Assembly (NCBI GenBank): GCA_902619925.1
Contig: CACNFY010000003.1
Coordinates: 1 to 64,000 of the forward strand
Length of the DNA: 64,000 nucleotides
Source of the DNA: an uncultured Pelagibacteraceae bacterium
Lineage (GTDB): Bacteria; Pseudomonadota; Alphaproteobacteria; Pelagibacterales; Pelagibacteraceae
Direction of reading: 5' to 3'
The first letter of the stretch is position 1. Every line of letters starts with the position of its first letter. Position numbers and translations under genes: made by a program. Under the pieces are notes generated by a model that was not told the origin of the DNA, did no database searches, and was given only the letters and a program-made list of their open reading frames with translations. Positions 25,136-28,060 of the stretch are shown one piece after another.

Positions 25136-25210
25136 TAGCAATTATTTAGCATATTTCAAAAAATTTATTTAAATAAGTTTAATTTATTTTGATTATTTTT
25201 TATTTTTAGG

Positions 25211-25570
25211 AAGCCAGATAGATTGTAAGCCGGGTTCTGTCTTTTAAACCTATCATTTATCTAGGCCTTAAATCACTTTAAGGCTCAAGCAACTAACCCT
25301 GATGACTAGCCAAAGACTGCTTTTAGTTATTTCTAACAATGTCATCTCTACTCAGTTTTGCTCTCAGTGGGGTTTTCCATGCGCTGTTTGTTACCATTCA
25401 GCCGGTGTGCTCTTACCACACCTTTTCACCCTTGCCTTGATAAGGCGGTTTATTTTCTGTGGCACTATCCCTAGGGTTGCCCCCGCCAGCCGTTAGCTGG
25501 CACTGCGTCTTTGTAGAGCCCGGACTTTCCTCTTTAAAAACATATAAAGCGATAAGTCATCTATCTGGCG
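25211..25570 (-). ncRNA. rnpB: RNase P RNA (bacterial type A)
   Basis: The catalytic RNA that trims the 5' ends of tRNA precursors. Read on the minus strand it begins with cgccagatagatgac and ends with atctatctggctt, which pair as helix P1. The invariant pieces are present in order: GAGGAAAGTCCGGGCTC, CAGTGCC, AGGGTGAAAAGG, GTAAGAGCACACC and CAGAACCCGGCTTACA. A -10-like TAATAT lies 8 bases upstream (25579-25584). The ends are approximate to a few bases. A 64-codon frame on the plus strand inside it is a shadow. Confidence 0.97.
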
Positions 25571-27836: not shown

Positions 27837-27913
27837 TGGTGGGCCCGCCAGGACTCGAACCTGGGACCAATACATTATGAGTGTACTGCTCTAACCAACT
27901 GAGCTACAGGCCC
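27837..27913 (-). tRNA. tRNA with CAU anticodon, probably tRNA-Ile2
   Basis: A complete cloverleaf with encoded CCA. Acceptor gggcctg pairs with cgggccc, the D arm is gctcagttggttagagc, the anticodon loop is ctCATaa, and the T arm ccagg-ttcgagt-cctgg is canonical. CAU can be elongator Met or lysidine-modified Ile2. The G27-U43 wobble and the U44-GGUC variable loop match E. coli tRNA-Ile2 better than its elongator tRNA-Met, so I prefer Ile2. Confidence 0.9.
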
Positions 27914-27985: not shown

Positions 27986-28060
27986 TGGTGGGCCGTGTTG
28001 GTTACGCTCCAACTACCCCTGCAATGTCAATGCAGTACTCTACTATTGAGCTAACGGCCC
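27986..28060 (-). tRNA. tRNA-Val(GAC) with non-canonical D/T loop bases
   Basis: The cloverleaf stems are perfect: acceptor gggccgt/acggccc, anticodon stem ctgca/tgcag with loop ttGACat, T stem gttgg/ccaac, encoded CCA. The T loop is AGCGTAA instead of TTCRANN and the D loop is AATAGTA instead of the usual form with GG. So T54-A58 is replaced by A54-T58 and G18-T55 by A18-G55, while G19-C56 is kept. It is either a functional variant or a decaying gene; the intact stems favour function. Confidence 0.85.

Follow-up and report, generated by a model that had tools for sequence, protein, structure and literature searches.

A tRNA-Val(GAC) gene with unusual D and T loops

In the 64,000-nt stretch of DNA analysed here (the window), ARAGORN predicted a tRNA-Val(gac) at 27986-28060 on the minus strand, a 75-nt gene with an encoded CCA end that also matched the Rfam tRNA family RF00005 (53.6 bits at 27989-28060, above the gathering score of 29). 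The window genome (G000) comprises 1.10 Mb in 30 contigs, and its genus is referred to below as g1. Read on the minus strand, the gene has an acceptor stem (GGGCCGT/ACGGCCC) with 7/7 Watson-Crick pairs, the anticodon stem (CTGCA/TGCAG) and T stem (GTTGG/CCAAC) are Watson-Crick paired as well, and the D stem (GCTC/GAGT) combines three Watson-Crick pairs with a G10-U25 wobble. The original prediction had described all four stems as perfect, which is correct for three of them and slightly too strong for the D stem; its report of an encoded CCA was borne out by the minus-strand sequence. The anticodon GAC lies at 28026-28028 (ARAGORN and sequence, minus strand), and GUU and GUC together make up 51% of the Val codons in window ORFs of at least 200 codons.

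The loops are where the gene departs from expectation. Its D loop (28041-28047, minus strand) reads AATAGTA, with A18 at 28044 and G19 at 28043, and its T loop (28002-28008, minus strand) reads AGCGTAA, with A54 at 28008, G55 at 28007, C56 at 28006, G57 at 28005, and T58 at 28004. Both loops and all six assignments underlying the predicted A54-T58, A18-G55, and retained G19-C56 were thus as first described. In the canonical elbow, G18 inserts into the T loop and is bonded to Psi55, and the defining contacts are G18-Psi55, G19-C56, and T54-A58 (PMC4810234, PMC7912444), with G18-Psi55 described as invariant (PMC4810234, PMC6337575). Judged against these contacts, the gene fails on 18-55, having A18 and G55, and on 54-58, having A54 and U58, and satisfies G19-C56. 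It is like canonical tRNAs in its cloverleaf, its G19-C56 pair, its purine 57, and its seven-base T loop, and unlike them in carrying A18-G55 and A54-U58, with no U54 or U55 to modify. The absence of these two modification sites, which had also been foreseen, follows directly from the sequence.

An oddity missed in the original prediction is the combination of A15 and A48, the latter (28014) being part of the variable loop GGGTA (28014-28018, minus strand) and facing A15. We rejected A15-A48 as a part of the elbow swap because A48 is also found in the canonical-elbow Val(GAC) genes of genomes G082 and G061; the 15-48 oddity is instead a lineage trait.

The gene has a close neighbor, a tRNA-Met(CAT) predicted by ARAGORN at 27837-27913 (minus strand), which has the canonical elbow AGTTGGTTA / TTCGAGT, scores 72.7 bits against RF00005 versus 53.6 for tRNA-Val(GAC), and is also found close to the tRNA-Val in many relatives' loci. 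A bacterial RNase P RNA of class A (298 bits) lies ~2.4 kb from the tRNA-Val gene at 25210-25568 (minus strand), and a 64-aa ORF (25302-25496) runs antisense to it.

Conservation of tRNA-Val(GAC) in the SAR11 order

When 61 genomes were searched with a 79-base query, 30 had a match, including one canonical gene from f2 (G037) and one partial match; 21 of the 30, the window's own genome among them, matched at 100% over the aligned part. Two matches were at 71% (G008 and G034), and the partial match was at L030. Of 397 genomes from the order, 222 had an exact signature, and a hand count of the signature-search rows assigned these to genus g1 (220/271) and genus g7 (2/5). One 99% complete genome (G069) had two signature-matching places, one on each strand. 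At least 120 loci on named genome contigs matched in a pattern scan; 119 of them hold the odd tRNA-Val type and one is a chance match that is not a tRNA. Among the matches listed, 79 of 80 contigs were titled Pelagibacteraceae, Pelagibacterales, or Ca. Pelagibacter, which places the window in SAR11. When 13 signature-negative g1 genomes were searched with a looser pattern, an odd-elbow variant was found in four (G137, G159, G176, and G198) and no match in nine, and the only one of those nine then read for Val(GAC), G082, had a canonical elbow. A normal TTC loop in close relatives had been named beforehand as grounds for suspecting an assembly error or recent mutation. Some relatives do have one (G082 of the same genus, G061 of g5, and the f2 genomes read); this loop represents a second stable state, and the odd form is not an error.

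Twelve distinct odd Val(GAC) variants were aligned, two of them cut one base off and each lacking one end pair. All 250 of 250 stem cells were paired, 42 cells were double-changed, and double changes occurred in 12 of the 21 stem pairs. In a stem test against 500 shuffles, the observed values were reached by none of the 500 on four of the five measures and by 5/500 on the fifth. The loop positions A18, G19, A54, G55, C56, and U58 were fixed in 12/12 variants, and G57 was replaced by A in one. The RNA therefore satisfies the tRNA criteria of RF00005 (score above cut-off, four stems present) and evolves as a structured RNA; on this comparative evidence, tRNA-Val(GAC) is a real gene kept by selection. 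It need not be essential, because a tRNA-Val(UAC) is also present, both in the complete genome G012 and in the window genome.

Other SAR11 tRNAs carry A18-G55

The altered pair is not confined to valine. We read 120 distinct SAR11-order tRNAs from 330 loci and found 90 with G18-U55, 30 with A18-G55, and none with a mixed pair; many of the loci were fetched for their odd tRNAs, making 30/120 no measure of frequency, and position 18 was assigned by rule in longer D loops. The 30 comprise Val(GAC) (12), Phe(GAA) (8), His(GUG) (5), and Thr(GGU) (5), and genome G190 adds a Tyr(GUA) with A18-G55. All five of these species have G34. In the complete genome G012, where 32/32 tRNA hits were read, A18-G55 occurs in Val, Phe, and Thr(GGU); the hits include one Phe(GAA), which is the A18-G55 form, one Val(GAC), and one Thr(GGU), and none of the three had a further, canonical tRNA of the same anticodon among the 32. 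The window genome has A18-G55 in Val, Phe, and His (25/26 hits read).

Phe offered a comparison within the genus, where the coupling is perfect: the forms AGGAGUA/UGCGAAU and AGUAGUA/UGCGAUU stand against the canonical AGUUGGUA/UUCGAGU. In the eight Phe loci that we compared, the flanking ORFs were common to both elbow states, so the elbow was most likely switched in place there, and several A18-G55 variants had the anticodon arm and variable loop of the canonical form unchanged. Some SAR11 His genes are strongly different over their whole length, and replacement of entire genes is therefore probably at work as well. Replacement is likewise suggested for His(GUG) in the window genome (L493 / L559, contig C25), a tRNA that is unlike most sister-species His tRNAs throughout.

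Positions 18 and 55 change together

Contigs predicted to be viral were a second source of tRNAs in which the coupling could be read. Loci fetched by their T loop alone (AGCGUAA, any D loop) had A18 in 12/12 cases, and those fetched by the D loop AAUAGNA, with only position 59 of the T loop constrained, had G55 in 13/13, with some duplicates in both sets. Among the matches listed for 117 loci (L220 up), A18 was accompanied by G55 in 58/61 distinct sequences and G55 by A18 in 58/62.

We also applied a tRNA scanner that demands U8, A14, A21, U33, G53-C61, and the stems and is blind to positions 15-20 and 54-60. Run on 259 viral loci (2.13 Mb), it returned 969 matches (851 distinct), versus no tRNA-like match in mononucleotide-shuffled viral sequence. 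There were 418 distinct tRNAs with a 7-nt D loop, and 415 of these had G19 and C56; the three that were dropped for lacking one or the other were two G-U and one G18-G55. In the 415, the 18-55 pair was G-U in 278, A-G in 120, and G-C in 13, and the only exceptions were A18-U55, A18-C55, U18-G55, and U18-U55, one each. The 13 G18-C55 tRNAs (T loop UCCGAUU and similar) represent a third state of the pair.

The loci had been chosen by pattern, and 120/415 therefore does not give the general frequency of A18-G55 in viruses. Loci first fetched by a neutral pattern had A-G in 3/198, an underestimate in that loci already collected were excluded. The 249 bystander tRNAs lying outside the fetch pattern were 187 G-U, 52 A-G, 10 G-C, and no other, and both main states of the pair occurred under 17 anticodons in these bystanders. 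When position 55 was shuffled within anticodon (2000 shuffles), the mean number of mismatches was 59.8 and the minimum 42, compared with an observed 0. At 75% identity the bystanders fell into 46 A-G, 153 G-U, and 9 G-C clusters, which are not fully independent events. A18-G55 was found under 26 anticodons among the 120 viral-contig tRNAs that carry it. Inferred from this covariation, the coupled unit is the tertiary pair 18-55. G18-G55 and A18-U55 are almost absent, which suggests that either half of the change is harmful by itself.

At positions 54-58, the same 415 tRNAs had U-A in 348, A-U in 33, G-G in 18, C-A in 8, C-C in 3, and other combinations in 5. A54-U58 was found with both states of the 18-55 pair, in 20/120 A-G and 13/278 G-U tRNAs (Fisher p 0.0002, uncorrected for relatedness). 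The 54-58 swap is a second layer beside 18-55 and a recurrent alternative. The proposal that the elbow had changed by compensation and not by decay was strongly supported by the 18-55 coupling, the 54-58 covariation, and the selection on the stems.

Occurrence outside SAR11

A covariance model (R1) run on 289 alphaproteobacterial genomes ranked SAR11 Val and Phe tRNAs within its first four rows. We read 28 further loci (L563-L590), and all were G18-U55 at the hit, which is a weak negative, as mostly 17 candidates were scored per genome and rows without a locus were left unread; an A18-G55 His tRNA of G061 ranked well below those 28 loci. Among named phages, A18-G55 was present in a tRNA-Met of Brevundimonas phage Kikimora (with a 9-nt D loop) and a tRNA-Met of Erwinia phage Cronus, and it was clear in the Val(CAC) of Erythrobacter phage XM05, whose Val(GAC) has G55 and an ambiguous D loop. 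It was not found in the partial tRNA sets read from Agrobacterium phage Atu_ph07 (2 tRNAs), DSS3phi2 (1), DSS3_MAL1 (11), N4 (3), T4 (6), Felix O1 (10), T5 (7), or the first 50 kb of HTVC008M (0). In a blastn search of named phages with the Val gene, the one match was weak and partial. Val(UAC) genes on four IMG/VR contigs (L181, L190, L193, and L195) agree with SAR11 Val(GAC) in their D and T loops and in the variable loop GGGTA, and transfer between SAR11 and viral Val genes, in either direction, is possible.

Modification enzymes

We searched for the Psi55 synthase TruB. The model TIGR00431 matched in 0/5 g1 genomes, 0/2 g8 genomes, and 7/7 other genomes. The Pfam domain TruB_N was not found in g1 (0/21), g8 (0/10), g9 (0/3), g10 (0/1), or g12 (0/1), with controls positive in 14/14, and it was found in g5 (4/4), g6 (4/4), g7 (5/5), g11 (1/1), and f2 (6/6). 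Of the 21 g1 genomes, seven consist of a single contig; completeness is only 83-86% for the g10 and g12 genomes. No TruB is detectable in the main SAR11 clade. Since TruB was not found in 36/36 genomes of these five genera, their U55-bearing tRNAs may carry an unmodified U55. The predicted loss of modification sites in the window tRNA is accompanied by the failure to find TruB in its genus.

A18-G55 was read in three TruB-bearing genomes, G190 of g7 (2/30 tRNA hits), G061 of g5 (1/32), and G037 of f2 (1/25 read of 28), and in no tRNA of the TruB-bearing G065 (32 read of 33); the TruB-less g1 genome G082 also had no A18-G55 tRNA (31 read of 32). On the strength of G190, G061, G037, and G082 we rejected loss of TruB as the sole cause. 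It is neither necessary nor sufficient for A18-G55, and is at most permissive, because the pair occurs in TruB-bearing genomes and is absent from TruB-less G082. TrmFO was not found at cut-off in any of 16 genomes; all 16 had weak matches, which we infer to be MnmG and others; the frames were 622-640 aa long except for one of 824 aa.

Discussion

We consider it very probable that this gene encodes a working elongator tRNA-Val with an alternative elbow in which A18-G55 and A54-U58 are combined with a retained G19-C56. The geometry, the direct contact between 18 and 55, the charging, and the use on the ribosome are all inferred, as we have no RNA, charging, or structural data; for charging and use in translation the inference rests on conservation and on the A18-G55 tRNA-Phe of G012. 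In such a tRNA, A18-G55 would take over from G18-Psi55, with A18 presumably slotting between 57 and 58 in the T loop to touch G55; the Watson-Crick pair G19-C56 would still cap the elbow, and A54-U58 would stand in place of U54-A58 within the T loop. A free A-G pair takes up more room than G-U, and a backbone adjustment must therefore be assumed. The L shape would then survive without m5U54 or Psi55, ValRS would charge the tRNA, and the tRNA would decode GUU and GUC.

Could the gene be a decaying pseudogene or an assembly error, with tRNA-Val(UAC) reading all Val codons? Its unusual loops do lower its score (53.6 bits versus 72.7 for the tRNA-Met), and a tRNA-Val(UAC) is present; however, this reading is virtually untenable, being ruled out by the conservation in 220/271 genomes of the genus and the stem compensation. 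The odd loops are fixed, the same A18-G55 is found in the apparently only tRNA-Phe of the complete genome G012, and the codons GUU and GUC account for the 51% of window Val codons given above. A second alternative is a stable tRNA used outside translation. In Staphylococcus, tRNA-Gly species whose D and T loops are altered are employed in cell-wall synthesis, and these, too, have lost G18 and U54/U55, the altered positions lying in both loops as in tRNA-Val(GAC). Unlike them, the SAR11 swap affects several amino acids, is a paired replacement, and includes an apparently only tRNA-Phe. We find a non-translating role very hard to credit when the swap recurs in SAR11 Phe, His, Thr, and Tyr and under 26 anticodons in the 120 viral-contig tRNAs, and when G012 has no other tRNA that could replace its Phe tRNA.

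Two further explanations address how the elbow came to be distributed as it is. Gene transfer could draw on the viral Val(UAC) genes (L181, L190, L193, and L195) that match SAR11 in the D, T, and variable (GGGTA) loops, and on the SAR11 His genes that differ over their whole length. Yet it would leave the near absence of mixed pairs unexplained, the 18-55 pairing turns up with many stem sequences and anticodons that are unrelated to one another, and in Phe both states occupy loci with common flanking ORFs and an unchanged anticodon arm and variable loop; as an account of the whole distribution we regard it as quite improbable. Loss of TruB might instead have driven the swap, if without Psi55 the G18-U55 pair were weak and A18-G55 favored. 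The enzyme's TruB_N domain was not found in g1, g8, g9, g10, and g12 and was found in g5, g6, g7, g11, and f2, and A18-G55 is found in Val and Phe of the TruB-less g1 and g8 and in Phe of g9. Against this stand the A18-G55 tRNAs of the TruB-bearing G190 (two), G061 (one), and G037 (one), and the TruB-less G082 with 0/31 tRNAs read as A18-G55. We consider it unlikely that TruB loss drove the change, while leaving the idea some weight. We return, then, to a translating tRNA with an exchanged pair, and read A18-G55, on sequence grounds, as a putative second means by which nature closes the tRNA elbow.

We found no description of A18-G55 or of the SAR11 tRNA-Val(GAC) in the open-access literature, searched by titles and abstracts with subscription journals mostly outside its scope; the A18-G55 elbow is apparently undescribed, and its absence from print has not been shown. 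Suppressor tRNAs with altered D/T contacts were reportedly selected in the laboratory by the group of S. Steinberg, and would indicate that other D/T contacts can work; those were products of laboratory selection, whereas the SAR11 pair is natural, widespread, and fixed. Natural departures are known as well. Eukaryotic initiator tRNA has A54-A58 (PMC7912444) and so has A54 in common with tRNA-Val(GAC), which differs in its U58 and its changed 18-55 pair. tRNA-Pyl lacks G18-Psi55 and G19-C56, and metazoan mitochondrial tRNAs lack the standard elbow (PMC6337575, PMC4810234); these and tRNA-Val(GAC) are all natural departures from G18-Psi55, but tRNA-Val(GAC), unlike the others, keeps its cloverleaf size and G19-C56 and exchanges one pair.

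A practical consequence is a warning that tRNA models based on the TTC loop underscore such genes, as seen here with 53.6 bits against 72.7 for the tRNA-Met. We raise only tentatively, as a possibility that we do not ourselves favor, that A18-G55 is a second natural elbow code independent of Psi55, which would have arisen many times and would spread freely in virus-borne tRNAs and SAR11 chromosomes, serving in essential tRNAs where TruB is lacking; under such a code, phage tRNAs may evade host enzymes that read the elbow. A18-G55 tRNAs offer a system for asking what RNase P, the CCA enzyme, EF-Tu, the L1 stalk of the ribosome, and TruB need of the elbow. SAR11 bacteria are among the ocean's most abundant groups, and the nearly strict natural alternative found in their tRNAs and on many viral contigs shows that the elbow, far from obeying one rule, has two matched solutions to choose from.
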